Made by a program: the position numbers and the translations under genes. A stretch of 64,000 nt of DNA from Duganella zoogloeoides. Lineage in GTDB: Bacteria; Pseudomonadota; Gammaproteobacteria; Burkholderiales; Burkholderiaceae_D. Of this stretch, positions 23,907-46,512 are shown piece after piece; positions within the stretch are counted from its first letter, which is position 1; every line of letters starts with the position of its first letter. Below the pieces are notes generated by a model, which searched no databases, was not told the DNA's origin, and saw only the letters and a list, made by a program, of their open reading frames with translations. The DNA lies in NCBI RefSeq assembly GCF_034479515.1, contig NZ_CP140152.1, forward strand, positions 3,162,001 to 3,226,000, in the 5' to 3' direction.

Positions 23907-26900
23907 CTAGAACGTGTAGTGCAGCTGCGCCGTGTAGCGCGGACCGGTCTTGAACCAGGTGTGGTTCATATTGCCGATATGCTGGTCCATGGTCTGGCGG
24001 AACTGGACATCGTTGAGGTTTTGCGCCTCCAGGCCGATCGACAGCTTCTCGGTGATCTTGTAGAAGATCGACGCATCGACCTGGCCGTAGGCTTCCGCCC
24101 ACAGCGGCAGGCCCCAGGCCAGGTTCTCGGCGCCGTAGGTCGGGCTGGCCGGGTTGGTGTCCTTGCCATCGGTGCCGCGCGCGCCATAGGTGTTGACGGC
24201 CTGCAGGCTGCGCGAACGCCAGTTGTAGGCCACCCGTGCAGAAACCGGGCCGCGGTCGTACATCAGCGCCAGGTTGCCGCTGCGGCGCGACAGCCCCTGC
24301 AACGGCAGGTCGCCGAACACGCGGCCGTCGGTATCGCAGCCGTTGATGTTGAGGTTCAGGTTGACCGCGCCGTCGGCGTTACCGCTGCAATACGCCGAAT
24401 ACACGGGGTTGTACAGGTCGCGCTTGCTGTCCACGAAGGTGAAGCTGGCCTGCACGCCGATGCCCTTGAGCCAGTCCGGCACACTGTCGTAATACTGCTG
24501 GTAAGCCAGTTCGAAGCCGCGCGCACGGCCCTTGGCGCCGTTGACCGGCGACGTGACGGCAAAGTTGTGCATGGTGCCGGCCGTGTCGGGCAGCTGCACG
24601 TTGACCAGCTGGTCCACCACGATATCTTTCAGGCGCTTGTTGAACAGCGCCAGCGTCAGCGAGCCGCCTGGCTTGAAGTACCACTCCGCCGTCAGGTCCA
24701 GCTGGGTGGACGTGGTGGGCCGCAGCATCGGATTGCCTGCCGCCTCGCCGGTGAGGCTGACGTTGCTGACGTTGACCGCACCGGTCACCGGATCGACGCT
24801 GCTGTTGACCACTTGCGACAGCGAGTTATAGGCCTGCAGCTTGTTGAAGTCCGGCCGCGAGATCGCCTTGGCCAGCGCCAGGCGGAACTGCCAGCCGTCG
24901 TTGCCTTTCAGGCGCAGGTTCAGGCTTGGCAGCACGTTGTTGTAGGTGTTCTGGAAGTCGCCGGGACTCGAGAACGCGCGGATATCGGGAATCGGCACGC
25001 CGACCACGGCCGCGCCGGGCGGAATCACCGTGGTGTTGGGCGACAGTACCGTGTAGCCGGCGGCCTTCATGTCAGTCCTCACATAACGCACGCCGATATT
25101 GCCGTCCACCGGGTACTTCAGGTCGTCGAAGCCGAAGCGCAGCTGGGTGTAGAACGCCTTGGTTTTTTCCGACACATTGTTGGTTTCAGCCGGATCGGTA
25201 CCGAACGTGGCGCGCTTCCACGGTTCGCACTCGCCCCAGCCCTGGATGGCGGCCTGCTCCTGGCACAGCACCGTATGGTAGCTGTGCAGGGTTTCGTAGC
25301 TGGTGGGGTAGCCGCGCGCCACCGAGTCGGCCGGGAATACCGCTGCCGGCACCGACGCGCTGCCGTTGAAGAAGTTATTGAACTGGTGCACGCGCGCCTC
25401 GCTGGCAAAGCGTGGATCGCCCAGGTAAGCGAGCGTGGGGATGTTCCAGCCCAGCATCCACGGCTGCGTGATCGGCTGCCAGTTGTAGCTGGGGTTGGAG
25501 TTTTGCGTGTCCGACCGGCGGTCGGTAAAACGCACGCCGAACCGCACGTCGCGCAGCACGGCGTGGTCGAAGTTGCGCTGGAAGTCGGTCTTCCACACGT
25601 TGTTGCTGGCCGTGGAGCGGTCGAGGTGCTCCATGGTGTAGCCCCAATAGTAATTGTTGGGGTTGGCGATGTAGGCGCGGTCGGCGTCGTCGAAGGTCAG
25701 CGTCGGCAGGCCGCCGGTCAGGTCCAGGCCCTGCTTTTGCAGGCGCAAGCCGGTGGCCACGTCGGAATCGAGCGAACTGGTCTTGGCGCGGATGCGCTGG
25801 AAGTCGTTGCGGATGGTCCAGTCCTGGTTCACGCGCCATTGCACGTTCAGGGCGATGTCGGTGGTGGACGAATCGCGGGCCGACACGCGGCGGTCCGGGT
25901 TCAGGTTGATGCCGCCATTGTCGGGATCGGACAGGGTGCCGGACAGCAAGGCGCCGTTGGCGCCATACACGCCATTGGCCACCTGGATCGCGTACGGGGT
26001 GGCGTGCGACATCAGCATGGCCTGTTCGCTCCAGCTGTTCTGGTAGCTGGACTTGAAATACGTGAGCGAAGCGGTCAGGTCGCGGTTCGGGCGCCATTGG
26101 GCGGCGGCATACTGGCCCTTGCGCTCGCGTTCGAATTCCATGGTGCGCCAGGTCACGCCCTTCGGCACCCAAACGGTTTTGCCCGGCACCAAGTTGTCGC
26201 GCGGATAGTACGGTTCGATCTGGAAGTTGTCGGTGCGGGTGTCGCTTTGCGACTTGGCAAAGTCCACCAGCAGGCCGAATTCGCCGAACGGCGTCTGCCA
26301 GCGGTCCGACAGCAGCAGCGAGGTCGATGGCGTGGCCTTGCCCTCGCGCAGCGTCGAGTACGACATCTGGCCCGAGATCGCGCCGCGGAAGCCCTTGTAA
26401 TCGAACGGCATGGCGGTGCGCAGGTTGACCAGGCCGCTGATGGCGCCTTCGATCTGCTCGGCGGACGGATTCTTGTACACGTCCACGCCGGCCATCAGTT
26501 CGGGCGGCACGTCCTCGAAGCTGAGCGAGCGCGAGCCGTTGGCGGAAAACGAATCGCGGCCGTTCAGTTCCGAGCGCACGTAGTTCAGGCCGCGAATCGC
26601 GACGCCGGAACCCTCGACCGCGTAGTGCTGCGGGTCGCCTGCCATGCTGCGGTCGATGGTCACGCCCACCACCCGTTGCAGCACCTCGGTCACGGAGCGG
26701 TCCGGCAGTTTGCCGATGTCGTCGGCATTGATGGAATCGACGATCTCGTCGGCGTTCTGCTTGATTTTTTGCGCGGACTGCAAGGCTGCGCGCTGGCCGG
26801 ACACCACTACCACGCTGGTTTCGGCAGGTGCGGCCGGTTGCGGCTCGGCGGGCATGGTCTGGGCCCAGGCGCTGGCGCCGGACATCACGCCAATGTGCGC

Positions 26901-26939
26901 CACGGCAATCGCCATGGCCGTCTTGTTCAGGTGTTTCAT
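23907..26939 (-). CDS. TonB-dependent receptor for oligosaccharides
   Basis: Large outer-membrane receptor of 1,010 residues in the Xanthomonas/Caulobacter-type TonB group that commonly takes up oligosaccharides. Seen: signal peptide (cleaved near SAWAQ), the typical DEIVDSINADDIGKLPDRSV segment before the plug, LQRVVGVTIDR, the long barrel and a terminal Phe (QLHYTF). It heads the operon receptor-GH6-MFS-GH6, so the likely ligand is a cello- or mixed-linkage gluco-oligosaccharide; this is inferred from context. GGAGACAGA precedes the start. A LacI-type operator lies 50 bases upstream of the start codon and three more lie further into the divergent region. Confidence 0.93.
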   Translation of the reverse strand: MKHLNKTAMAIAVAHIGVMSGASAWAQTMPAEPQPAAPAETSVVVVSGQRAALQSAQKIKQNADEIVDSINADDIGKLPDRSVTEVLQRVVGVTIDRSMAGDPQHYAVEGSGVAIRGLNYVRSELNGRDSFSANGSRSLSFEDVPPELMAGVDVYKNPSAEQIEGAISGLVNLRTAMPFDYKGFRGAISGQMSYSTLREGKATPSTSLLLSDRWQTPFGEFGLLVDFAKSQSDTRTDNFQIEPYYPRDNLVPGKTVWVPKGVTWRTMEFERERKGQYAAAQWRPNRDLTASLTYFKSSYQNSWSEQAMLMSHATPYAIQVANGVYGANGALLSGTLSDPDNGGINLNPDRRVSARDSSTTDIALNVQWRVNQDWTIRNDFQRIRAKTSSLDSDVATGLRLQKQGLDLTGGLPTLTFDDADRAYIANPNNYYWGYTMEHLDRSTASNNVWKTDFQRNFDHAVLRDVRFGVRFTDRRSDTQNSNPSYNWQPITQPWMLGWNIPTLAYLGDPRFASEARVHQFNNFFNGSASVPAAVFPADSVARGYPTSYETLHSYHTVLCQEQAAIQGWGECEPWKRATFGTDPAETNNVSEKTKAFYTQLRFGFDDLKYPVDGNIGVRYVRTDMKAAGYTVLSPNTTVIPPGAAVVGVPIPDIRAFSSPGDFQNTYNNVLPSLNLRLKGNDGWQFRLALAKAISRPDFNKLQAYNSLSQVVNSSVDPVTGAVNVSNVSLTGEAAGNPMLRPTTSTQLDLTAEWYFKPGGSLTLALFNKRLKDIVVDQLVNVQLPDTAGTMHNFAVTSPVNGAKGRARGFELAYQQYYDSVPDWLKGIGVQASFTFVDSKRDLYNPVYSAYCSGNADGAVNLNLNINGCDTDGRVFGDLPLQGLSRRSGNLALMYDRGPVSARVAYNWRSRSLQAVNTYGARGTDGKDTNPASPTYGAENLAWGLPLWAEAYGQVDASIFYKITEKLSIGLEAQNLNDVQFRQTMDQHIGNMNHTWFKTGPRYTAQLHYTF

Positions 26940-27365: not shown

Positions 27366-29564
27366 ATGAGACAAATTTCCACCATCATGCGGCCCCTGCC
27401 GCTGCTGATGACATTGATGTTCGGAACGGGCCATGCCGCGGCGGCCACCCCCGCCCAGCTCGACACCCGCGCCCGCACCGCTGTGGCGGAAATGACACTC
27501 GCCGAGAAGATCCAGACCGTTTTCGGTTACTTCTCGACCGATTACAAGGGCACGGCCAAGCCCGAGAAAGGCGTGCCCTTCAGCGCCGGCTACCTGCCCG
27601 GCGTGCCGCGCCTGGGCATCCCGGACCAGCAACTGACCGACGCCGGCACCGGCGTGGCCTCGCAGCCGAACCCCGCCCCGCGCCAGCGTACGGCCCTGCC
27701 GGCGGGCATTGCCACCGCCGCCAGCTGGAACCCGGCGCTCAGTTACGCGGGCGGCGCCATGATCGGCAAGGAAGCGCGCCTGTCGGGCCACAACGTCATG
27801 CTGGCCGGGGGCGTCAACTTGCAGCGCGAACCCCGCGCGGGCCGCAATTTCGAGTACGCGGGTGAAGATCCGCTCCTGGCGGGCGTCATCGCCGGCGAAC
27901 AGATCCGGGGCATCCAGTCCAACCACCTGGTGGCCACCGTCAAGCACTTCGCCTACAACGACCAGGAAACCGGCCGCTTCAAGGTCGATGTCAGGATCGA
28001 CGACGCAGCCGGCCGCATGTCGGACCTGCTGGCATTCCAGATCGCCATCGAACGGGGCGACCCCGGCTCGGTCATGTGCAGCTACAACCGCGTCAACGGC
28101 GCCTACGCGTGCGAAAACGACTACCTGCTGAACCAGGTTCTCAAGCGCGACTGGGGCTACAAGGGCTATGTGATGTCCGACTGGGGCGCGGTGCATTCGA
28201 CCATACCAGCCGCGCTGGCTGGCCTGGACCAGCAGTCGGGCTGGCCGTTCGACCAGTCGCCGTACTTCAACGGCGCGCTCAAGGAGGCGGTGGAAAACGG
28301 CCACGTGCCGCCGGCGCGTCTCGACGACATGGCCTACCGCATCGTGCGCGCCATGATGGCCAATGGCCTGACGGAACACCCGGTGCGGGTGGAGCCCGAA
28401 AACATCGACTACGCGCGGCATGCCGAGATTGCGCAGGCGGTGGCCGAAGAAGGCATCGTGCTGCTGAAGAATCGCAACGGCGTATTGCCGCTGACCGGCC
28501 GGCAGCAGACGATTGCCGTGATCGGCGGCCATGCGGACGTGGGCGTGCTGTCGGGCGGCGGCTCGTCCCAGGTCTATCCGGTCGGCGGCTCGCCGGTGCC
28601 CAACGAGGGGCCTGCCGCCTTCCCCGGACCGATCATCTACGCGCCCTCCTCGCCGCTGGCGGCGCTGGCCGCGCGCCTGCAGGCAAAACTGGTCTATCAC
28701 GACGGCAAGGACGCGGCGGCGGCTGCCAGGCTGGCGGCAACGAGCGACCTGGCCATTGTCTTCGCCACCCAGTGGACCGCCGAGAGCATCGACCAGCCCG
28801 ACCTGTCGCTGCCTGGCAGGCAGGACGTTCTGATCGCCGCCGTGGCGGCCGCCGGCAAGTCCACCGTGGTGGTGCTGGAGACCGGATCGCCGGTGACCAT
28901 GCCGTGGCTGGCCAACGTGGATGCCGTGGTGCAGGCCTGGTACCCGGGCAGCCGCGGTGGCGATGCGATCGCCCGCGTGCTGACCGGCGAGGTGGACGCG
29001 TCCGGGCGCCTGCCCGCGACGTTCCCGCTGTCGGTGGCGCAGTTGCCGCGTCCCGTGGTCGATGGCGTGGGTCTGGCGGAAGATGCGCGCTTTGCCACCG
29101 ACTACTACATCGAAGGCGCAGCGGTGGGCTACAAGTGGTTCGACAAGCACGGCCACAAACCGCTGTTCGCCTTCGGCCACGGCTTGTCGTACACGTCGTT
29201 CAGCTATTCGGCGGTGAAGGCGCAGGCGCAGGCCGGCGCGTTAATGGTCTCGTTCAAGGTAACCAACACCGGCCAGCGTGCCGGCAAGGCCGTGCCGCAG
29301 GTATACGTAAGCAAGAAAGGATCGGGCTGGGAAGCGCCGAAGCGCCTGGGCGGCTGGGACAAGCTCACCCTGGCGGCGGGCGCTGCCGGCGAAACCCGCA
29401 TCGAGATCGACCCGCGCACGCTGGCCGTGTTCGACTCGGCCAGGGGCCGCTGGAAAATCGCTGCCGGCGAGTACGAGGTGATCCTTGCCGAAGCGGCGGA
29501 TGCGCCGGTGGCGACAGTCAAGGTCCGGCTGCCGGCCCGGGAGTTTGCCGCCGGCGCGCGCTGA
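27366..29564 (+). CDS. GH3 beta-glucosidase (first copy)
   Basis: Exported glycoside hydrolase family 3 enzyme of 732 residues that removes glucose from the non-reducing end of beta-glucosides. Seen: signal peptide (MRPLPLLMTLMFGTGHAAAA), N-terminal barrel with the KHFAYNDQE substrate-binding motif and the nucleophile Asp272 in VMSDWGAVHS, a middle alpha/beta sandwich domain, and a C-terminal fibronectin-III-like domain (RAGKAVPQVYVS). It is divergent from the GH6 operon and shares its operator region, so it probably finishes the digestion of oligosaccharides brought into the periplasm. AGAGGT precedes the ATG; ATG 27387 is an alternative start. The GH3 gene at 56581 is a close paralogue. Confidence 0.93.
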   Translation: MRQISTIMRPLPLLMTLMFGTGHAAAATPAQLDTRARTAVAEMTLAEKIQTVFGYFSTDYKGTAKPEKGVPFSAGYLPGVPRLGIPDQQLTDAGTGVASQPNPAPRQRTALPAGIATAASWNPALSYAGGAMIGKEARLSGHNVMLAGGVNLQREPRAGRNFEYAGEDPLLAGVIAGEQIRGIQSNHLVATVKHFAYNDQETGRFKVDVRIDDAAGRMSDLLAFQIAIERGDPGSVMCSYNRVNGAYACENDYLLNQVLKRDWGYKGYVMSDWGAVHSTIPAALAGLDQQSGWPFDQSPYFNGALKEAVENGHVPPARLDDMAYRIVRAMMANGLTEHPVRVEPENIDYARHAEIAQAVAEEGIVLLKNRNGVLPLTGRQQTIAVIGGHADVGVLSGGGSSQVYPVGGSPVPNEGPAAFPGPIIYAPSSPLAALAARLQAKLVYHDGKDAAAAARLAATSDLAIVFATQWTAESIDQPDLSLPGRQDVLIAAVAAAGKSTVVVLETGSPVTMPWLANVDAVVQAWYPGSRGGDAIARVLTGEVDASGRLPATFPLSVAQLPRPVVDGVGLAEDARFATDYYIEGAAVGYKWFDKHGHKPLFAFGHGLSYTSFSYSAVKAQAQAGALMVSFKVTNTGQRAGKAVPQVYVSKKGSGWEAPKRLGGWDKLTLAAGAAGETRIEIDPRTLAVFDSARGRWKIAAGEYEVILAEAADAPVATVKVRLPAREFAAGAR

Positions 29565-29876: not shown

Positions 29877-31769
29877 TTACTCGAACCGTTGCTCGCGCCG
29901 CTCATCCTCCTCCTGTTCACGCAACCTTTCGCGCTCGATCCTGTTCGCAATTTTTTCAGATATCGACTTTGCTGCAGCAGAGATTGCCGCGTTCTTATGT
30001 GTAACCAGCACGGCGATTGCAGCAGCTCTAGGCTGCATGGCGCTAGCCATGCTACCAGCCCAACTTGAAGGCGATACGCGCTCGGCATATGCATCCAGAA
30101 CAGCTTCTGGATTTGTAGACGCCTCCAGCAGCCTGACTGCTGATTCGGATAGTGTCACTTCCGCCAGATCCTCCTCACTGGACCAGACACGGATCGCCGC
30201 AGCGACAAACGGCCAAACGCTGCTGTTGCTCCTGGCACCACACCAATCAATCAAAACTTGAATATCGACTTCCGCAAGAGGTGGGCTATCCATGCCACCA
30301 TGGCTCATAAACATCAATCGTCGATTTCGTTGTTTTTCCGTACCCTCAAAAACGCGATCAAGAAACACTTTTGGCAACAACGCGACGGTCGTCTGGATGA
30401 CTTTTTCAAAAGCGTGAACGTAGCCGTAGCTCTCATCAATTACATCGAAGATCGTGTCGAGCCACTCGAGCTTTTCGGCTTCGTTGCCAGCGAAGCGCAA
30501 TGCTGCACCGACGACGGTATCCATCGCGTGGTCTCCCCGTCCACCACGATAAGTATCGTTCTTCCGGAGCCGTTGGATCGCTGCTCTCAGACCCACCAGT
30601 CGCAGTTCGGCGCCGAGAGTATCGACTGCGTCATCTTTGTTATGTAGCCGCATATCCAGTGCGTCCAGAACTACGTCATCACCGTTCGGCTTAGTCAGTA
30701 GCCGCTGAGCTAGAGCAAGCAAACGGTGCACTGGGAGATGTGCATAGTCGTCCCTCCATAGGATAGGCCCAAACGTTCCCAAGTAAGTGGCAGGATCATC
30801 CAGAAGGGTCTCACAGCGACTCAGGTCCGCCTCTGTAAAAATGCCCTGTGGGTGCAAGAGGACCAGCACATTTCGAAGTTCTGGCTGCTGCGCACACTGA
30901 TCGAGCAACTCCTGCGCCAACACGATATCGACCGCGTTCGTCTCCTCGATGAAACCGCCGAAGACTATAAAGTTCGACTTGTCCCCCGTCTGCTGGACCA
31001 TGTGTGCAACAAGTTTCCGCCATCCAGCATGCACATCATGCGCCCCTCTCGCCAGCCCTCTTCCAAACGCTGCACGATACGGCATCCAATCCCTGGAAAA
31101 CAGCTTGGATCCCAAGTCATCAAGCTCATGGCCTGATGCAGCAAAGTTCTCTCCCAATTGGAGCGCCCTGGCTTGGAGTCGTTTTTCAGCGTCTCCATAA
31201 TTATCGTGATCCTTGTGGAAGTCGGCGTCCAGCGCCCAGTAGTCACCACTGCTCAGCACATAAGTCATTATCGTCGGAACCAGGTCGCGGGGTTCCAACT
31301 CATTCGCAAGCATGGCAAGCGCTTCCGGTAGAGGCTGGAAATTTTCTTCATCCTGACGCTTGATATAGTCGAAATAAATTGTTGATCGAACGGCTTTCCA
31401 ACCCTCACCAAACGGGTAGTACGCGTTTAGCTCGCGAAAAGCATCGACAAGTTTCTCCTTCATCGGTTCGTGATGCCAAATCCCTCTGAACGCGTTTGCC
31501 AAAGTCATCCTTGCGGGTCCCTCAAGTTCAGAGTCGCCCGAGGACGCCAATTTCACGGCAACGTCGATGAAGGCGCTACGCCACACAACCAATTCATTAT
31601 GGTTTGGTTGAGATCCATAGTTTCTGGGGCGAGCGCCAAACTCGCTTATCTCAATTCCGGTCCACGACGGTCCCGACAAAGCGGATGAGAGCATCTTAAA
31701 ACCTAGCGATTTCCGTCCTACATCGTCAGAAGAGAAGCACTCATTCATGACCGCAATTCGCTGCGCCAA
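29877..31769 (-). CDS. C-terminal half of a split nuclease-STAND protein (helical sensor region)
   Basis: Open frame of 630 codons from an internal ATG, with no catalytic motif. It looks all-helical throughout (repeated amphipathic helices such as EPMKEKLVDAFRELNAYY) and ends in a charged tail (IERERLREQEEDERREQRFE). It is in the same reading frame as the 631-codon gene upstream. Between them the frame is broken only by one TAG at 31827-31829, and the 19 codons before this ATG still read as good protein (VRAKVTKFFQPYLSGTHASL). The natural reading is therefore one protein of about 1,281 residues, of which this is the helical-repeat C-terminus that would serve as sensor in STAND proteins. No ribosome site is seen for independent translation. 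Base composition is lower in GC than flanking genes. Confidence 0.75.
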   Translation of the reverse strand: MAQRIAVMNECFSSDDVGRKSLGFKMLSSALSGPSWTGIEISEFGARPRNYGSQPNHNELVVWRSAFIDVAVKLASSGDSELEGPARMTLANAFRGIWHHEPMKEKLVDAFRELNAYYPFGEGWKAVRSTIYFDYIKRQDEENFQPLPEALAMLANELEPRDLVPTIMTYVLSSGDYWALDADFHKDHDNYGDAEKRLQARALQLGENFAASGHELDDLGSKLFSRDWMPYRAAFGRGLARGAHDVHAGWRKLVAHMVQQTGDKSNFIVFGGFIEETNAVDIVLAQELLDQCAQQPELRNVLVLLHPQGIFTEADLSRCETLLDDPATYLGTFGPILWRDDYAHLPVHRLLALAQRLLTKPNGDDVVLDALDMRLHNKDDAVDTLGAELRLVGLRAAIQRLRKNDTYRGGRGDHAMDTVVGAALRFAGNEAEKLEWLDTIFDVIDESYGYVHAFEKVIQTTVALLPKVFLDRVFEGTEKQRNRRLMFMSHGGMDSPPLAEVDIQVLIDWCGARSNSSVWPFVAAAIRVWSSEEDLAEVTLSESAVRLLEASTNPEAVLDAYAERVSPSSWAGSMASAMQPRAAAIAVLVTHKNAAISAAAKSISEKIANRIERERLREQEEDERREQRFE

Positions 31770-31826
31770 AGAGGCATGCGTGCCGGATAAATAGGGTTGG
31801 AAAAACTTGGTGACCTTGGCTCGAAC

Positions 31827-33722
31827 CTAGTTGGAATTATTGTTCTCTTCTTCATCATCCGTAGCGCGAATCAGGAGCCTGACGCAGCGGTCAAAAGCAA
31901 TCGGTTCGTATGCTAGTGATCGCAATAAATTGAAAATGGTCGAGCGCTGAGAAGTGTAACGTGGATGCGTACCGTTAAATTCAGGTGAAGTGAGTTCTGC
32001 TTCGATCCTGTCAAGCAGTGCTTCAGGTGCGACCGGAGCGATATAGTCGAGAATTCGCAACGACATCTCGTCCAAGTCAGATAGCCGCCCCAATAGTCCG
32101 TCCGGATGAAGCCACACCTCAACGATCTCTCTTGCGACAGGGTGATCATGCAAAAGACCCAACCTATGCGCAAACGACATCAGTAGGCGTTGACGACCGG
32201 CACCTTCAAAGACCGCTCTCAGTTGATCGACCCGAATATTACTGAGTGCCGATGCTGCGAGCTTGTTAGCAATAGCATGAGGCAGAATAGCTCTCCAACG
32301 CCCGCGCATTTGTACAATATGGCGTTCAGCCAGCTTATTGACCGATTTAAACAGCTGCGCATGGGAATGCCCAGCGATCGAACCAAGTAATTCCAGCTCA
32401 TGATCGCCAACTTCCGGGGTAGAAATCGAGAACGAATATACCAAGGACAGTATTTCAGCCTGCTCCCGCAAATCGTTGTCTGCCTGATTGCGCTGTTCGA
32501 ACAAGCGGCTGAACAACTGGGCATCCGAAAGCTGTCCCAAGCTCTCGCCTACCTCTACCCTCTCCGCAATAGCCAAAGATACTCTCGCGTTGCCATCGGC
32601 AAACTCCGCAATGCGACGTGCGTTGCTCTGACCGATGCCCGGGAAGCGGCGTAGCAAAAGTCGCTCGGCAATCTCTGGCCCGACGGCTTCAATATGAACT
32701 ACTTCTGTGGTCTGTGGTTTATCATCCCTGATGTCATACTCAACCGTGATAAGCCTTACATTACCATCTTCGGCAGATACCCTGCGAGCGAGTGAAGAGT
32801 GCAATTCCGACGGGCAGTTATCCAGTATGAGAACGGCGCGCCGCCGCTCTGCGATAAGCCTGTCCAGCATCGCAGTAGCCGAAAGCGTGGGATCTGCACC
32901 GGTATCAACATAGACCGCCAATGTTCGGTCCAGCGCATTCTGACCGAGTGTTTCGTCAAACAGTGCCTGAACAATCCTGGTTTTTCCTACACCTGATAAC
33001 CCGGTGATTCGAACAGCTTTTCCAGTAGCCCGGATGAGCTCTCTCATCGGCTCAATAGCGTTTTCCAAACTAAGTTTTTGATGCTTTTGCGACGGCAAAG
33101 TGACTAATACGCCTGAGTCCAATATCAGCGTATCGTCAGCACCTCGAGGCGGATTACTCCAGGCTCCGTATGCCTGCCACCCCGAGTATCCCTGGCCCAG
33201 CTTTTGCTTCAACCACAGCATAACCGAAGGGTGCTGCCGTACCCACTGCACCAGCTTGGAGCGGTCGTAAAAGTCCAAGTGGATATTGGCTTTATTGGGG
33301 TCGTCCTCCATTGCACGGCACATCGCTGACAAGCGTTCATTTTTCATGAGGGGAGAGCAATCATCAGCCAAACTGACGATAATATAACTCCCACCGTTCG
33401 CAGCCTGCTCACTGATCGTTGGTGACAACGCTCCAGCTGCCACCATTTCCTTCATCACCTCACCCTTCGGCATTGAATACTTCTTAGACTGTAAGATCGT
33501 ATCTGGCCTTTCAAGAAAACCGGTGCTGAATTCATCTTCAAGAACATGAACGCGAATATCAATTCCACCATCGGGAGCACTGATCGAACCTGACCAACTT
33601 ACCCTGGCAGGACTATGCCCCTTCGCCGCCACTTCTGCCTCAGCAAGCCGGGCTATAAATTCTTCCAACAGCTCATCCGACAATCCCGTCAGTTGATCTT
33701 TTTCGATGTCGAAGATTGCCAC
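31827..33722 (-). CDS. N-terminal half of a nuclease-STAND NTPase (Avs-like), ends at in-frame TAG
   Basis: Residues 1-180 contain a restriction-endonuclease-like fold signature: DGGID at 51-55 followed by QSKKY at 78-82, fitting a PD-(D/E)xK / Mrr-type nuclease. Residues 235-460 are a STAND/AP-ATPase domain with Walker A GLSGVGKT (241-248) and Walker B AVLILDN (296-302), then winged-helix-like and helical sequence. Effector-NTPase-helical sensor is the architecture of Avs anti-phage proteins, in which sensing of a phage protein triggers nuclease activity. The start is GTG 33722 behind GAGGTGAAGTT. Translation would stop at the TAG at codon 632, cutting off the sensor half. The gene is AT-richer than its neighbours and was probably acquired by transfer. 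Assignment to a named Avs type is not possible here. Confidence 0.8.
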   Translation of the reverse strand: MAIFDIEKDQLTGLSDELLEEFIARLAEAEVAAKGHSPARVSWSGSISAPDGGIDIRVHVLEDEFSTGFLERPDTILQSKKYSMPKGEVMKEMVAAGALSPTISEQAANGGSYIIVSLADDCSPLMKNERLSAMCRAMEDDPNKANIHLDFYDRSKLVQWVRQHPSVMLWLKQKLGQGYSGWQAYGAWSNPPRGADDTLILDSGVLVTLPSQKHQKLSLENAIEPMRELIRATGKAVRITGLSGVGKTRIVQALFDETLGQNALDRTLAVYVDTGADPTLSATAMLDRLIAERRRAVLILDNCPSELHSSLARRVSAEDGNVRLITVEYDIRDDKPQTTEVVHIEAVGPEIAERLLLRRFPGIGQSNARRIAEFADGNARVSLAIAERVEVGESLGQLSDAQLFSRLFEQRNQADNDLREQAEILSLVYSFSISTPEVGDHELELLGSIAGHSHAQLFKSVNKLAERHIVQMRGRWRAILPHAIANKLAASALSNIRVDQLRAVFEGAGRQRLLMSFAHRLGLLHDHPVAREIVEVWLHPDGLLGRLSDLDEMSLRILDYIAPVAPEALLDRIEAELTSPEFNGTHPRYTSQRSTIFNLLRSLAYEPIAFDRCVRLLIRATDDEEENNNSN

Positions 33723-33839: not shown

Positions 33840-33874
33840 ATTTAAAATAAATTAAGCCCGCGATTGGCGGGCTT
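33840..33874 (-). terminator. terminator of the M28 peptidase gene
   Basis: AAGCCCGC pairs with GCGGGCTT (33854-33861 with 33867-33874, 5-base loop), followed on the minus strand by T-rich AATTTATTTTAAA. It lies 90 bases past the peptidase stop and marks the edge of native sequence next to the AT-rich islet. Confidence 0.75.
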
Positions 33875-33964: not shown

Positions 33965-35503
33965 TTACTGGCTCGACTGCCGCTTCCACGCCTCGACATA
34001 CGGCCTGGTCAACGGATTGGCCGTATTCCATTTAGGCGCGACGGGGTCATTTGCAATCATCAGCACGCCCAGCGCCACCATCCGGTTGACCTTGGCCATG
34101 TTGGCATAGTCGACCTTTTGCCAATGGTCGCCGGGCGCGTGGTAGTCGGGGTATTGAAAGGCCACGCACAGCGTATGCGCGGGCACGCCCTGGTCGGCCA
34201 GAGCCTGGTTGTCGCTCAGCCCGAAATACAAGTCGCTGTTGGCTTCATTCTTGTACACGTCGATGCCGGTGAGCTTGCCGGCCTTCCGGAATACCGTGCC
34301 GACATCGGAGAAATCGAAGCCCGTCATCGACGCGTTGTTCAGTTGCGGGCCCTCCGAGCTGTCGGTGCGCCCCACTTGCTCCAGGTTGACGTTGGCCACC
34401 GTCTGCCTGATCGGCAGGATCGGATGGCGGCCATAGTAGCGCGAACCGAACAGGCCAAGCTCTTCGCCGAACACCGTCATGAAAACGATGCTGCGCGCGG
34501 GCCGCTGCTTCATGCCAGACAGTGCGCTGGCAATTTCCATGACCGACACGGTGCCGCTGCCGTCGTCATTGGCGCCGTTGTGTATCACGCCGTCCTTGAT
34601 GCCGAGGTGGTCGTAATGCGCCGTTACCATCACATAGGTATTTTTCAGTTCCGGATCCGAGCCGCGCAGCACGCCGATCACGTTGCGCAGTTTGACCGCA
34701 CGTTCGACCGGCGCCGCCACGTTGACGCTGACGCGCGCGCGGCCGCCCGTGCGCGACGCATCGAGCGCCCGTATCGCCTGTACCGAATGAAGCGTGATGC
34801 GCGGGATGGGGGACACGGTCTCGCCGCTGTTCTCGGGATCGATCAGGCGGCCTTTGCCGCCGGCATTGCCTTTCGGGTGCGCGCGGTCGACCAGCAGCAC
34901 CAGCGCCGGCCGCAGCTTCGCCAGTTGCGCGTTAAAGAACTGCCAGCCCCCGTAGGCAGTCCTGGCCTGCTCGGGCGGCATGGCTTCAAAGTCCGGCAGA
35001 TTGATGACGACGACTTTGCCGGCCAGCGTGGCGGTGCTGTGTGCGTTGAGCGCAGCGGCGTCGCTGGCGTCGATGTTGACGATAGCGGACGGCGCCAGCG
35101 CCAGGGCCTGCGCGAGGCTGAAACTGAGCTCGCTGGCAGGGATATCGAGTTGCTCTTTACCGGAATCGATCCTGAACGAAAAATCCTTCAGGTTCGTTTC
35201 AGCGAAGGCCCAGTTCGCGGTCTGGAAATAACCGTCGTCGCCAACCGCTTCGAGTCCCGCGCGGCGGAACTGGGCGGCGATGTATTCGGCCGCCAGGTCC
35301 TGGCCGCGCGACGGCGTGCCGCGCCCCTCCAGCAGGTCGGAGGCAATGAACGACAGGTGGCCGCGCAGGGAATGCTCTGAAATGCGCTCGAGGGCGGCGC
35401 TGGTGTCGGGCGTCAGGTGCGGGTCGGCGGCGGCGCTGGCGCCTGCATGGATACCGGCGATGCCGATGACGGCAGCGAAGGCGTAAGCGAATAATCTCTG
35501 CAT
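33965..35503 (-). CDS. M28 family zinc aminopeptidase, exported
   Basis: Exported metallopeptidase of 512 residues. Seen: signal peptide (MQRLFAYAFAAVIGIAGIHAG), a protease-associated (PA)-like insertion in the first half, and the M28 active-site set: HYDHLG, the bridging Asp in NGANDDGSG, the general base and zinc-ligand pair in GEELGLFGS, and a later His in PDYHAPGDHWQ. The probable role is removal of N-terminal residues from peptides in the periplasm or medium. The start is ATG 35503, preceded by AGGATCACAC; the open frame extends 17 codons upstream without support. It is monocistronic, with a clear terminator. Confidence 0.9.
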   Translation of the reverse strand: MQRLFAYAFAAVIGIAGIHAGASAAADPHLTPDTSAALERISEHSLRGHLSFIASDLLEGRGTPSRGQDLAAEYIAAQFRRAGLEAVGDDGYFQTANWAFAETNLKDFSFRIDSGKEQLDIPASELSFSLAQALALAPSAIVNIDASDAAALNAHSTATLAGKVVVINLPDFEAMPPEQARTAYGGWQFFNAQLAKLRPALVLLVDRAHPKGNAGGKGRLIDPENSGETVSPIPRITLHSVQAIRALDASRTGGRARVSVNVAAPVERAVKLRNVIGVLRGSDPELKNTYVMVTAHYDHLGIKDGVIHNGANDDGSGTVSVMEIASALSGMKQRPARSIVFMTVFGEELGLFGSRYYGRHPILPIRQTVANVNLEQVGRTDSSEGPQLNNASMTGFDFSDVGTVFRKAGKLTGIDVYKNEANSDLYFGLSDNQALADQGVPAHTLCVAFQYPDYHAPGDHWQKVDYANMAKVNRMVALGVLMIANDPVAPKWNTANPLTRPYVEAWKRQSSQ

Positions 35504-35593
35504 GTGTGATCCTGTGTAAAGCCGGAGGTGGATGTCGGCTTGTTTGTTGTGCAACGGATCATATCAGAGTTCACTGTACGCCAGCAGGGCTGG

Positions 35594-36539: not shown

Positions 36540-39419
36540 ATGGACAACCAATGCGGACGCATCGGGGCTGTCATCGCACGCCCACTCTACTTGAAGCTGT
36601 CGGTCGCTACCCTGCTGGGCGCAGGCGTGCTGAGCAGCGCTTCGGTATGGGCACAAACAGTCACCGAGACGACCGAGACGCCTGAAAACACGGTGGTGGT
36701 CACCGGGGTCAAGGCATCGCTGATCAAGAGTTTGTCGATCAAACGCAACAGTGATCAGGTCGTCGAATCGGTCGTTGCCGAAGATATCGGCAAGCTGCCA
36801 GATAACAATGTTGTAGAAGCGCTACAGCGAGTGACGGGCATTCAGGTCACCAATCGCGCCGGCGGCGAAGTCGGCACCTTGTCGATTCGCGGCCTGCCCG
36901 ATGTCCAGACCACCTGGAACGGCCGCAGTATTTTCACGGCGTCCGGTACCCAGGTCGCGCTGCAAGACATTCCCTCCACCCTGGTGCGCCAGATCGACGT
37001 CTACAAGACCCGCGACGCCAGCCAGCTCGACACCGGCATCGCCGGCCAGGTGGACGTCAAGTCGCTGCGGCCTTTCGATTTCAAGGAGGCCAAAGTGTCG
37101 GTCCTGGCGCGTGAGACCTATCTCGACCCCGCCAAAAAGGCGAACCCGCAGCTCAGCGCCATGTTGAGCAACCGCTGGGAAACCGGCATCGGTGAAGTCG
37201 GCGCTTTGGTCAACCTGTCGGCCAGCCGGACCAAGTACCGCAACGAAAGTGTGACGCCGGGCGCCATGGTGCCGTTTACCAGCCCCAATGCCGCCGAGGT
37301 CCCTCCCGGCTATACGCCCTTGCAGCGCATTACCGACACCAATATCTGGACGCCCGGCACCCATGCCGGCTTGCCGTCCGCAGCGGGTTCTACGCTCGAT
37401 TTCAACGGCAAGGCGTATCCCTATTACCTGGCGCGCGACGCCGTGTTCCAAAGCGACGTTGAAGGCGAACGTGAGCGCCCTGCCGCCAATATCGCCTTGC
37501 AGTGGAAGCCGAACAGCGATTCGGTGTACACCTTCGAATCGATGTACAACGGTTACCGTGACAAGTCCTTCAACCGCTTGCTGTTCAGTTTTGTCGACTG
37601 GTGGGGCGATCTGGGCAGCAATCCTGCCTCGACCATTACCACGTTCCCCGGAACGAACATCATCAAGAGCCGCACTGTCAATAATGTCTATGGCTTCAAC
37701 AGCGGCGACTACACCACGTCGGCCACCGACTCCCGTATTTATGCCCTGAACGGCAAGTGGAATGTTGGCGACCGCCTGCGGCTCGAAGGTGATGTGGCCT
37801 ATCAGTCCAGCACCTATCATACGGAATTTACCGCCACCCGCATCGATCGCGTGGCGCCCTCCATCAACGTCGACTTCAATGCCGGCGGCGGCAACACGGC
37901 ATTCGGCTTCAACGACAATGCCGACCTGACCAACGCGTCCAAGTGGAACGTCGCACAATTCTACGATAATGCCAACCGCAACAAGGGCAGCGCCGCGACC
38001 GCCAATCTGTCCGGTGTCTTCGACGCCGACTGGGGCGCGCTGGAGACGATCCACTTTGGCGCCCGCTTCGACGACCGCAAGGCGTCGGAGGCCAACCGCA
38101 CCCAGTCGGGCACCTTGAACCGCAACCTGGCTTCGCTGGGACCCGAGTACTCCTCGACCAACTCGAACTTCGGCACGGACATCTCGAACGTGCCCCGCTC
38201 CTGGGTGGAGCCCAATGCGTACTACATCCGCGACCATATCGATGACTGGCGCAAGATGTTCAACGCGACCGATCCGAACTTCCTGACCACCGACAAACTC
38301 AGCCTGCAAAAGACGTTCGAGGTCGAAGAAAAGACCAGCAACCTGTTCTTGATGGGAAATACCCAAACCGAACTGTTCGGCAATCGCCTGCGCGGTAATT
38401 TCGGCGTGCGTTACGTCAAGGTCAAGACCGACATGACGTTCTACAAGGTCGATGCCACCACCAAGTCGGTGACCCCGTCCAGCGCCAGCAAGTCGACCAG
38501 CAAGTTCCTGCCCAGCCTGACCCTGATGTACGATCCGGCCAAGGACGTCGTGATGCGCGCGAACTACGGCGAAACCTTGCGCCGCCCGAACTTCGGTGAT
38601 CTCAACCCGGTCCTGCAGCTCGGCGACGACGTCTCGAAGGTGGGCTATGGCTCGGGCAGCGGTGGCAACCCGGACCTGAAACCGACACGCTCCAAGAACC
38701 TCGACCTGACAGCCGAGTGGTATTTCCAGAAGGACAGCGCATTGTATGGCACAGTGTTCAAGCGCAAGATCGACGGCCTGGTCGTGGGCTTGCGCCGCAA
38801 GGTGCACGTCGATCCGGCGAACGACCCGTTCCGTAACTCGACCTCGGGTGGCGACCACACGAATGGTTACGACTACGTGATCAACTCGCCGGTCAACGCC
38901 TCGGACGGCACGATCAAGGGCGTCGAGCTGGGCTTGATCTACTTCCCGAAAGGATTGCCGAGCCTGCTCGATGGCCTGGGATTCCAGGGCAGCTTCACGC
39001 GACTGAGCTCGTCGCAGAACGTGCCGGATGCTAACGACGCCGGCGAGATCGTCGCCCAGCTCGAGACGCCGTTCTTCGGCGTGTCCAACCGGTCCTACAA
39101 CGCCACCATGGCTTACGAAAAAGGCCCGGTCAGCGCGCGCCTGTCCTATGTATGGCGCTCCGGCTTCCTGGCCGCCAACGAAGCCGCCCTGTTCGCGAAT
39201 CCGATCGGTATCTGGCGTCATCCGGAAAAGAGCGTGGATATGCAGGTGTCCTACAAAATCAACGACAACATGTCGGTCGATATCAGCGGCGTCAACCTGA
39301 CCAACGAAATGCAGCAGCAGTACTATCACTTCGGTAATGCGGGTAACGCCCAGACCACCAACTTCGGTACGCTCCAGATCGGACGTTCGGTGTCGGTTGG
39401 TTTGCGCTGGAAGATGTAG
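36540..39419 (+). CDS. TonB-dependent receptor, sugar-receptor type
   Basis: Outer-membrane receptor of 959 residues in the same Xanthomonas/Caulobacter-type group as the receptor at 23907: signal peptide (cleaved near VWAQT), a SDQVVESVVAEDIGKLPDNNVVEAL segment around the plug start, LQRVTGIQVTNRAGGEVGTLSIRG, and a long barrel. AAAGGAGACATC precedes the ATG. No enzyme or permease gene follows in the same direction, so the ligand is open; an oligosaccharide is the usual guess for this group. A strong terminator follows. The gene's base composition is native. Confidence 0.9.
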   Translation: MDNQCGRIGAVIARPLYLKLSVATLLGAGVLSSASVWAQTVTETTETPENTVVVTGVKASLIKSLSIKRNSDQVVESVVAEDIGKLPDNNVVEALQRVTGIQVTNRAGGEVGTLSIRGLPDVQTTWNGRSIFTASGTQVALQDIPSTLVRQIDVYKTRDASQLDTGIAGQVDVKSLRPFDFKEAKVSVLARETYLDPAKKANPQLSAMLSNRWETGIGEVGALVNLSASRTKYRNESVTPGAMVPFTSPNAAEVPPGYTPLQRITDTNIWTPGTHAGLPSAAGSTLDFNGKAYPYYLARDAVFQSDVEGERERPAANIALQWKPNSDSVYTFESMYNGYRDKSFNRLLFSFVDWWGDLGSNPASTITTFPGTNIIKSRTVNNVYGFNSGDYTTSATDSRIYALNGKWNVGDRLRLEGDVAYQSSTYHTEFTATRIDRVAPSINVDFNAGGGNTAFGFNDNADLTNASKWNVAQFYDNANRNKGSAATANLSGVFDADWGALETIHFGARFDDRKASEANRTQSGTLNRNLASLGPEYSSTNSNFGTDISNVPRSWVEPNAYYIRDHIDDWRKMFNATDPNFLTTDKLSLQKTFEVEEKTSNLFLMGNTQTELFGNRLRGNFGVRYVKVKTDMTFYKVDATTKSVTPSSASKSTSKFLPSLTLMYDPAKDVVMRANYGETLRRPNFGDLNPVLQLGDDVSKVGYGSGSGGNPDLKPTRSKNLDLTAEWYFQKDSALYGTVFKRKIDGLVVGLRRKVHVDPANDPFRNSTSGGDHTNGYDYVINSPVNASDGTIKGVELGLIYFPKGLPSLLDGLGFQGSFTRLSSSQNVPDANDAGEIVAQLETPFFGVSNRSYNATMAYEKGPVSARLSYVWRSGFLAANEAALFANPIGIWRHPEKSVDMQVSYKINDNMSVDISGVNLTNEMQQQYYHFGNAGNAQTTNFGTLQIGRSVSVGLRWKM

Positions 39420-43701: not shown

Positions 43702-45093
43702 GATGGTGCCCCACGACGTGGTGTATGAAGACTTCGCCAGAGATGGCGTTTAGGAAGGCCGCGAGAAGGTGGTCATTGTGATTCTTGAGGTAATGTTGGG
43801 TTTACGAAGACCTTAACAAAACCACTTTGAGGAACCACAATGACCGACACCACTATCGCATTATCTGAGCTTGCCGAAAAGGGGGCAGATGCAGATTTCA
43901 TCCGCCAGACGCTGCAGCACGCTCTGCAGCGACTCATGGAAATGGACGTCGAGGCGCTTTGCCAGGCAGCTTACGGCGAGCGCAGCGACGAACGTATCAA
44001 CAGCCGCAACGGTTATCGGGACCGCGGCTACGAAACCCGGGCCGGCAAAGTCGACTTAAAGATTCCAAAGCTCCGTACAGGCAGCTATTTCCCCGGATTT
44101 CTCGAGCCGCGCAGGACGGCCGAGAAGGCTCTCACGGCAGTGATCCAGGAAGCCTATATTCAGGGAATCTCGACCCGCTCGGTCGATGACCTGGTCAAAG
44201 CCATGGGCATGACCGGGGTCTCGAAAAGTCAGGTATCACGGCTATGCGAGGAGATCGATGAGCGCGTGCAGACCTTCTTGAATCGACCGATCGAAGGCGA
44301 TTGGCCTTATCTCTGGATCGACGCCACCTATGTGAAATCACGCCAGGCCGGCCGTGTGGTCTCGGTGGCCGTGATAATCGCTGTAGCAGTCAATACCGAT
44401 GGCGTGCGCGAAATTCTCGGAGTAGCGACCGGCCCTTCGGAAGCGGAGCCGTTCTGGACCGACTTCCTGCGCGGTCTGACCCGCCGTGGTCTGCGTGGGG
44501 TGAAACTGGTGATCTCCGATGCGCATGAAGGCCTCAAAGCGGCAGCGAGCAAAGTGCTCAAAACGAGCTGGCAGCGCTGCCGGGTCCATTTCATCCGTAA
44601 CGCGCTGGCCCATGCCGGTAAAGGTCAGCGGCAAGCCGTGCTCGCCATGATCAATACCATCTTCGTGCAGGACACTGCGGAGGCGGCCAGCGTGCAATGG
44701 CGCAGCGTCGCCGATCAGCTACGGCCAAAGTTCCCCAGGCTCGCTGCCATGATGGACGATGCTGAACATGAAGTGCTGACATTTATGACGTTCCCAAAAG
44801 CGCATCGGACGCAGATCCACAGTACCAATCCGCTTGAGCGGCTCAATGCCGAGGTCAAACGAAGGACCAACGTCATCGGCATTTTTCCCAACGATGGCGC
44901 CATCATCCGCCTAGTAGGCGCCATGATGCTCGAGCAAAACGACGAGTGGTCATTACAGCGCCGTTACATGCAGCTTGAAGGATTGCAGTCCTTGAGCGAC
45001 AATCAGCCTGCACGGCTATCCGCTGTGATTAACTGATCGGGAACCCAGCCCCTCGAGAATTACTTCTCATACACCACTTCTGGGGACACCATC
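43702..45093 (+). mobile_element. IS256-family insertion sequence, complete
   Basis: 1,392-base element with imperfect terminal inverted repeats (22 of 27 positions match, both ends beginning GATGGTG and sharing GTGGTGTATGA) and one intact transposase gene. It is flanked by an exact 8-bp direct repeat, AATGGATG (43694-43701 and 45094-45101), the expected target duplication for this family. Removing the element and one copy restores the IS6 transposase motif GSWRMDETYIKV across the junction, which proves the insertion site. Confidence 0.9.
43840..45036 (+). CDS. IS256-family transposase
   Basis: DDE-type transposase of 398 residues, the usual family length. It appears complete: N-terminal region with [22 protein letters not shown] typical of the family, first Asp in [10 protein letters not shown], second Asp in [11 protein letters not shown], the CRVHF segment, and the Glu in [13 protein letters not shown]. 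The element's left end lies 138 bases upstream and the right end 57 bases downstream. The ribosome site TTGAGGAACCACA precedes the ATG. With intact ends and target duplication it may still be active. Confidence 0.95.
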
Positions 45094-45204: not shown

Positions 45205-45306
45205 GTGGCATGGGATCTGGCGGAAGTTGATGCATGGATCGAAATGCGGCAGGCCGGCCAGGGCCAATCAAGCGCTCCGACGCGCACAGTGGAACAATCT
45301 TCATAG
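45205..45306 (+). pseudogene. AlpA-like excisionase/regulator remnant
   Basis: Thirty-three codons plus stop that read VAWDLAEVDAWIEMRQAG, matching the C-terminal helix of AlpA-family phage/island regulators (of the form VAWxxxEVDAWI). The N-terminal winged-helix part is missing and replaced by the IS6 remnant. It lies at the 3' side of the integrase gene, overlapping its stop, the neighbourhood where AlpA genes are often found in P4-like islands. Confidence 0.6.
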
Positions 45307-46512
45307 CGACGCTCGGTTTTCATCCCCATTCGTCCAGCGATCAATCATATCTGCCCAGTCTTGCAGCATCGCGCGTCGCTGCTCTGCATACTCGACCCTG
45401 TTGTACACCGCCCTCACGTTTCTTTGCTCGTGCGCCAGACATTTCTCTATCCAGTCGGTGTTGTAACCGGCCTCATGCAGCAGCGTCGAGCCTGTACGCC
45501 GCAAGTCGTGTGGAGAAAAATGGTCCAGCGTGATGCCGGAACTTTTGGCATTCTCCACGACAGCCGACAGCACGCCATTCAAGCTGACACCGCTCATCGG
45601 CCTATCGATGTCGTACCTGTTTGGTAAGATAAAGCGCGAGCCACCTGCACACGTTTTGAACGCGATGAAGATGTCCATTGCTTGTCGGGATAAATATACG
45701 TTGTGTGGGTTGCGCCGCTTCATCCGCGTTCCCGGGATGGTCCAGAGCGCCTGTTCAAAATCAACCTCGTCCCACGTAGCGTCGGTCAGCTCGGACTTTC
45801 GCACCAGTGTCAGCAACAACACCTTGCAGGCCAGCTTGATGGTTGCAGCACTGTTGATACGCTCCAGGTGGCGATAGAACAGCGCGATCTCTTTCGGCGA
45901 TAGAGCTCGGTCACGCGGCGTGAACGTGGCGATCGATGAAGGCCTAACCGATTCAGCCGGATTCGCGTGATGCTCCCCGTTCGCATCCGCGTACCTGAAG
46001 ACCTGCAACACGATCTCGCGTACGTGAACTGCTACCGCTGGCGCATTACGCGCGACAATACGCTCGCACACCCGGCGAAGCGCTTCCTCCGTGATTTCGG
46101 CCAACAGCAAGGACCCGATTGTCTTTTGGAGATCCCGTTCGTAAGTAAAGCGGCGCATGGCGCGCGTTGATTCGGCCATGCGATAGCTGTCCAGCCAGCG
46201 CTCCGCCCAATAATTGAAATTATTGGCTGCTTTTTTTCTTAGCTGACGCTGTGTCTTGCTGCGGGCGGGCGACACTCCTTCCCTTAGCGCGCCACGTGCG
46301 TCAGCAAGCGCCTCACGCGCATGCGCCAGGGTCATCCCACCAGCGCCGTACCGCCCAAGCGTCAGCGTTTCCTGCCTGCCGTTGACACGATAGTTGTAGC
46401 GGAACGAGATTCCTCCAGAGGGACTGACCAGCACATATAGTCCGTCACGGTCCGCTACCTTGTACGGCACCTCTCTTCCCTTCAAATTTTTCAGCTTTGC
46501 GTCTGTCAGCAT
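45301..46512 (-). CDS. P4-type tyrosine recombinase (island integrase)
   Basis: Integrase of 403 residues with the P4-family N-terminal domain (MLTDAKLKNLKGREVPYKVADRDGL begins typically), a SAM-like core-binding domain and a catalytic domain. The catalytic set is complete: Arg in LTLVRKSELT, HDLRR, the His in CLAHEQ and the nucleophile Tyr in RAVYNRVEY. It would integrate and excise the island. Its start faces the 3' end of guaA about 400 bases away, an established preferred target of such elements. Five copies of a 9-bp repeat lie between its start and guaA. The gene seems intact although the island cargo is decayed. Confidence 0.93.
   Translation of the reverse strand: MLTDAKLKNLKGREVPYKVADRDGLYVLVSPSGGISFRYNYRVNGRQETLTLGRYGAGGMTLAHAREALADARGALREGVSPARSKTQRQLRKKAANNFNYWAERWLDSYRMAESTRAMRRFTYERDLQKTIGSLLLAEITEEALRRVCERIVARNAPAVAVHVREIVLQVFRYADANGEHHANPAESVRPSSIATFTPRDRALSPKEIALFYRHLERINSAATIKLACKVLLLTLVRKSELTDATWDEVDFEQALWTIPGTRMKRRNPHNVYLSRQAMDIFIAFKTCAGGSRFILPNRYDIDRPMSGVSLNGVLSAVVENAKSSGITLDHFSPHDLRRTGSTLLHEAGYNTDWIEKCLAHEQRNVRAVYNRVEYAEQRRAMLQDWADMIDRWTNGDENRASL

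Follow-up and report, generated by a model that had tools for sequence, protein, structure and literature searches.

The question raised by this locus is whether a large candidate anti-phage gene of Duganella zoogloeoides that carries a single in-frame TAG is inactivated, misread, or expressed in some gated or divided form. The window, as the whole analysed stretch of 64,000 nucleotides is called here, comprises bases 3,162,001–3,226,000 of a single-contig genome of 6.32 Mb (NZ_CP140152.1). On its minus strand a frame of 1,281 codons, followed by its own stop, extends from 33722 to 29877, and its sole break is the TAG at 31829–31827, codon 632, which is evident both in the sequence and in the alignment of homologues. 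The evidence presented below makes it probable that this PD-lambda-4_A defence gene was acquired horizontally and that the TAG is a genuine nonsense mutation of recent origin.

The interrupted gene (29877–33722, minus strand), delimited by its frame, a family profile and a homologue search, consists of two open reading frames (ORFs) in one frame. ORF 1 (31827–33722, minus strand; 631 amino acids) starts with GTG at 33722, ends at the TAG and, as judged from the profile and a model of the N-terminal half, encompasses a nuclease-type region, a STAND NTPase and the first helical repeats. ORF 2 (29877–31769, minus strand; 630 amino acids) encodes the C-terminal half, the presumed sensor, as indicated by sequence and profile. 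These lengths and positions agree with an earlier note on this DNA, to which the minus strand is to be added; its GTG start for ORF 1 holds, whereas the ATG that it gave for ORF 2 is replaced by TTG, the first ATG lying at 31748, where the joined frame reaches codon 659. Across the 1,281 codons there are no other stops, as had been claimed, and the codons directly past the TAG, which read VRAKVTKFFQPYLSGTHASL and had been described as protein-like, are alignable with intact homologues.

Both halves match the same PADLOC profile, PDLC03991 (PD-Lambda-4_A): ORF 1 corresponds to positions 1–631 (1096 bits, E = 0) and ORF 2 to positions 634–1283 of 1283 (906 bits, E = 1.2e-272). The profile gives 2068 and 2219 bits for two relatives of full length. 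Since the two ORFs together cover one 1,283-position profile end to end, their union into one gene is not a matter of chance, and by sequence the gene belongs with the large subunits of PD-lambda-4, a known system, and with no named Avs type. The Avs label first attached to it was not sustained: PADLOC includes Avs models, and PD-Lambda-4_A is the only model that either half matched at E<=1; likewise, no Avs chain was recovered in sequence searches of the PDB or among the best 50 of 1,066 fold matches. Pfam yielded AAA matches only, all sub-threshold (AAA_16 below its cut-off), and NCBIfam nothing of weight. The analogy with Avs proteins is one of layout only, with a like order of effector, NTPase and C-terminal region; Avs1–4 carry a nuclease-type effector, according to statements in PMC12931631.

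PD-lambda-4 was found by functional selection in E. coli, as indicated in PMC9519451, and is placed under the P-loop NTPases in a review (PMC10952713). The window gene resembles subunit A of this system over the whole length of the profile and departs from it in its in-frame stop and in that subunit B is not found in its own genome (no match to PDLC03992 at E<=0.001; among 14 control genomes, only that of E. coli matched). Subunit A often occurs without a recognisable neighbouring B: among 50 DNA loci fetched for the family (44 genome contigs and 6 viral contigs), a subunit B query matched beside A in only 7, a count that would miss a distant B or one lying past a contig end.

In order to establish whether the stop is a conserved trait, the joined protein, with the stop written as X, was compared with its relatives. 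The search returned 675 homologues, the best 120 of which are 1,193–1,336 residues long and cover 92–100% of the query, and the column of the stop is occupied by a residue in 120/120 of them. The nearest, P0002, is 99% identical, equal in length and uninterrupted, with 10 other residue differences; it has no match in PHROGs. The genus sample, set at up to n=300, comprised 74 genomes; 7 of these, that of the window included, gave matches at E<=0.001, with an internal stop in the window's frame alone. Extension to samples of 245 (family), 399 (order), 369 (class) and 398 (phylum) genomes gave, together with the genus, 14 other matches at E<=1e-100, none of which has an internal stop; 12 are long and two partial (G398, at a contig end, and G703). 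In the 50 fetched loci a single uninterrupted match over residues 30–1240 was found in 39. Seven of the other 11 are cut close to a contig or locus end (L030, L041, L042, L046, L048, L050 and L056), and four look truly damaged, namely by a frameshift near 461 (L040), a stop plus truncation (L044), several lesions (L045) and truncation (L047). Among the sequences compared the stop is thus private to this one.

Apart from the stop, the gene shows no sign of decay. Alignment columns conserved to 95% or more contain 8 deviations in the window protein, every one shared by P0002 with the identical residue; the window copy thus shows no visible decay since its divergence from P0002, and the lesion is probably recent. 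The 10 differences from P0002 fall 3 before the stop and 7 after it. Comparison with a Janthinobacterium copy (73.5% identical without gaps) gave ratios of nonsynonymous to synonymous divergence (dN/dS) of ~0.10 before the stop (0.111/1.113) and 0.17 after it (0.209/1.238), values that speak to long-term purifying selection only, because dS is near saturation. Recent inactivation, which the earlier note had allowed as one of several options, is thereby the leading one, on the strength of a private stop and the lack of further decay.

Equivalent lesions occur in E. coli, where 151 of 5,426 genomes carry a closely similar form of the gene (in 131, 80% or more in a single place). Of 60 rows listed from these 151 genomes, 15 look split by insertion sequence (IS) elements, split by a stop, or incomplete: IS elements lie inside the matched stretch in H33, H61, H62, H63, H73 and H86, H68 is split without an insert, and H84, H85 and H87–H92 cover 2–83% of the query. 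Sequences of three of the 15 (H33, H68 and H73) were fetched, along with H79 and H81, which are 4 bases shorter and retain a full-length coding sequence (CDS). The H68 copy, from strain WY517-2, differs from the intact H54 at one nucleotide of 3,852, a change that turns codon 457 into a TGA in frame, and is annotated as two CDSs in one frame. It is thus like the window gene in family, in its lone in-frame stop and in its two same-frame ORFs, and unlike it in the nature and position of the stop; a hypothetical gene lies ~45 bases downstream, in the position of B. The literature searches on defence-gene inactivation surfaced no paper on the PD-lambda-4 family, as judged from the result listings. 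The window gene can now be assigned to a known defence family and clearly exemplifies how a single codon can interrupt a STAND defence gene; its counterparts in E. coli are an allele with a one-base nonsense change and copies carrying IS insertions. The pattern is in keeping with ready gain and silencing of such systems.

The consequences of the stop depend on what lies on either side of it. The PD-(D/E)xK-like region (residues 16–117; 33372–33677, minus strand) was delimited from motifs and from an AlphaFold2 model of residues 1–631 (mean per-residue confidence, pLDDT, 85.3; predicted TM-score, pTM, 0.67), which shows a helix at 16–33, strands at 41–43, 56–59 and 74–80, a helix at 86–93 and a strand at 112–117. 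Helix, three strands, helix and strand is the order expected for a PD-(D/E)xK nuclease, and residues D51, G53, D55, Q78 and K80 are invariant across 77 aligned relatives. No Pfam nuclease model matched at E<=1, so that the prediction of a PD-(D/E)xK-like nuclease rests on motifs and fold order; a viral restriction-endonuclease model appeared as one weak fold match, at rank 32. Walker A (GLSGVGKT, residues 241–248; 32979–33002, minus strand) is identical at all eight residues in 119 homologues, and G241, L242, S243, G244, G246 and K247 are invariant in 77 more diverse rows; the Walker B region (AVLILDN, residues 296–302; 32817–32837, minus strand), also recognised from alignments, has D301 and N302 invariant. 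When the model was compared with the PDB by Foldseek, the best 50 of 1,066 matches were headed by Apaf-1 (E 2.2e-7), followed by the TPR-containing STAND protein 6mfv (4.0e-7), RuvB, NOD2, RuvB and NLRC4. Because TM-scores are low (<=0.26 by query length; RuvB and clamp loaders score alike), these matches back the superfamily only, and at that level the model supports the fold of a STAND-type NTPase, both Walker motifs included, in the N-terminal half. The final part of the model, from 482 to 622, is helical, and the loop after helix 607–622 lies just before the stop. The layout proposed in the earlier note therefore stands as regards the nuclease-type motifs, the STAND NTPase and a long C-terminal region, with fold evidence for the N-terminal half only.

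Division of the protein into an effector and an NTPase-sensor body is supported, in one case, by a relative whose effector appears to have been exchanged. This protein of 1,380 amino acids, from a same-genus genome (G005; L157:1375–5514), matches residues 235–682 and 1157–1271 of the joined window protein and scores 201 bits with PDLC03991. Its body is thus like PD-lambda-4_A, with NTPase and C-terminal region, and its N-terminus is alpha/beta-hydrolase-like instead of nuclease-like (LmuA at E 2e-10; relative to the Pfam cut-offs, Abhydrolase_1 falls slightly under and DUF676 slightly over).

The intact protein, like its relatives, would probably be a STAND (NLR-like) sensor-effector, in which the C-terminal half would recognise a phage component, the NTPase would switch and oligomerise, and the N-terminal nuclease would cut DNA. 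In the window copy translation is expected to end past codon 631, with loss of the C-terminal half, which would probably be translated poorly or not at all from ORF 2; as that half is removed, the truncated nuclease-NTPase should fail to sense phage. In Avs5, deletion of the C-terminal helices is described as abolishing immunity in a passage of PMC12931631, and by this analogy loss of the whole C-terminal half should inactivate the window protein. Some observations temper this reading: a single sequence of the locus is available, the N-terminal half retains all its motifs and could act alone, the loss of function is a prediction from sequence, and a slight excess of partial relatives ends near the stop. 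The latter came from searches with each half (70 matches, and the best 120 of 653), from which partial relatives of at least 50% identity were kept. Their break points are scattered (48 N-side, 43 C-side); N-side ends within 10 residues of 632 number 4 (average across positions 1.29, maximum 8), and C-side starts within the same distance number 1 (average 1.15, maximum 5). With ends so dispersed, a hot spot of breaks at 632 is at most weak.

The main rival to a real nonsense allele is an error of base calling or assembly, the gene being intact in the living strain. The existence of the uninterrupted P0002, the absence of decay elsewhere in the gene and the single available sequence would all accord with it. 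However, the genome is a single contig scored 100% complete. The length of 1,281 is shared by near relatives, so that the lesion is not an indel, and indels are the commoner type of assembly error. P0002, moreover, differs at its 10 other residues and is thus most likely another strain and no better reading of this one. An error is accordingly judged unlikely, and a genuine stop is preferred.

Two further explanations accept the TAG and give it a function, as a leaky gate or as a functional split, so that the main product would be a sensorless nuclease-NTPase accompanied by little full-length protein or by a separate sensor. Taken together they are distinctly improbable; if either were true, a costly immune protein would be restricted to a very low dose or put together in trans. 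A working two-protein system, with ORF 1 and ORF 2 translated separately and acting in trans, would be consistent with both halves being open, with the TTG and ATG starts offered by ORF 2 and with four partial homologues that stop at residues 622–626. On the other hand, no Shine-Dalgarno-like run was seen by eye upstream of either the TTG (31769) or the ATG (31748), the partial homologues start and end at dispersed positions, and most loci, as counted above, carry an uninterrupted frame, those that do not being mostly cut at contig or locus ends. Homologues encoded as two genes with a conserved stop, an arrangement raised in the earlier note, were looked for and not found, and a conserved two-gene form is rejected on the grounds of the residue in the stop column, the mostly uninterrupted loci and the scattered partials. 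The probability left to such a split is very small.

Readthrough, by which some full-length protein would be made while the costly nuclease is mostly kept from its sensor, is likewise very improbable. It would, if true, represent a new control of nuclease immunity, and the evidence points away from it: apart from a frame that is otherwise open and motifs that are kept, nothing speaks for it. The stop is unconserved, none of the 84 tRNA places in the genome (located with Rfam RF00005 and all read with ARAGORN) has a CUA anticodon, and TAG terminates 2/5 nearby genes checked, both encoding TonB receptors (23907–26939 and 36540–39419). Amber suppression is rejected for the same lack of a CUA anticodon, no sign of amber recoding was seen, and the amber gate once suggested for this gene thus found no positive support. 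A selenocysteine tRNA gene (anticodon UCA; C1:4056258–4056348) was also noted in this genome and is irrelevant to TAG. Programmed frameshifting is superfluous, since the frame is unchanged.

The nonsense allele occurs in a gene whose surroundings suggest horizontal acquisition. It is present once in its own genome (search with the N-terminal half) and stands alone between genes for a GH3 glycosidase (27366–29564, plus strand) and an M28 peptidase (33965–35554, minus strand). Guanine-plus-cytosine (GC) content in 1-kb windows is 0.50–0.56 over the gene versus 0.64–0.70 over the two adjacent genes, and in windows farther out it drops to 0.55 too. In six same-genus stretches, DNA similarity stops at, or at most 25 bases from, the stop codons of the GH3 and M28 genes. 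The lower GC content relative to the adjacent genes and the end of similarity at their stop codons together suggest that the gene was acquired. An empty site with both flanks was not found in a relative; in six relatives the GH3 or the M28 orthologue occurs without the other. A predicted terminator-like hairpin (33854–33874, minus strand) separates the gene from the upstream M28 peptidase gene, so that it probably has its own promoter; terminator-like sites in the region number 6 versus 4.4 expected by chance, and no Sigma-70 promoter was recognised on the minus strand.

Other potential signs of mobility, and of a defence island, were also considered. A PADLOC scan of 31 of the 89 ORFs of at least 180 amino acids returned mad3, mad8 and 2OG, with one ORF each; these were judged generic and a defence island was rejected. 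Close plasmid copies were rejected as well: at the DNA level only two Enterobacter plasmids match, along less than half the gene's length and with ~66% identity; at the protein level, plasmid matches comprise 42 records, the best 64% identical. Elsewhere in the window, a Mutator-family transposase (43840–45036) and a tyrosine integrase (45301–46512) lie beside a GMP synthase gene, and the segment 43840–48529 is likely an integration site, ~10 kb from the PD-lambda-4_A gene.

Gene neighbourhoods of the family revealed two further associations. In 8 of the 50 loci, all from Enterobacterales, a reverse transcriptase (RT) lies just upstream of PD-lambda-4_A, with type VI retrons as its best match in the locus scanned (L023). 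It lies upstream of the PD-lambda-4_A match in L014, L019, L023 and L035, and is partial or split in the others (L012, L013, L017 and L045). An HTH_VI-like protein is found in 5/8 and PD-lambda-4_B just downstream in 5/8 (L012, L014, L023, L035 and L045), giving an operon-like order HTH-RT-A-B; in L022 and L053, B is present without the RT. In four other loci (L015, L018, L026 and L031; about 3.7–5.9 kb), a PifA-like KAP-family NTPase ends ~110 bases upstream of PD-lambda-4_A, that of L015 scoring 377 bits with PADLOC PDLC02361.

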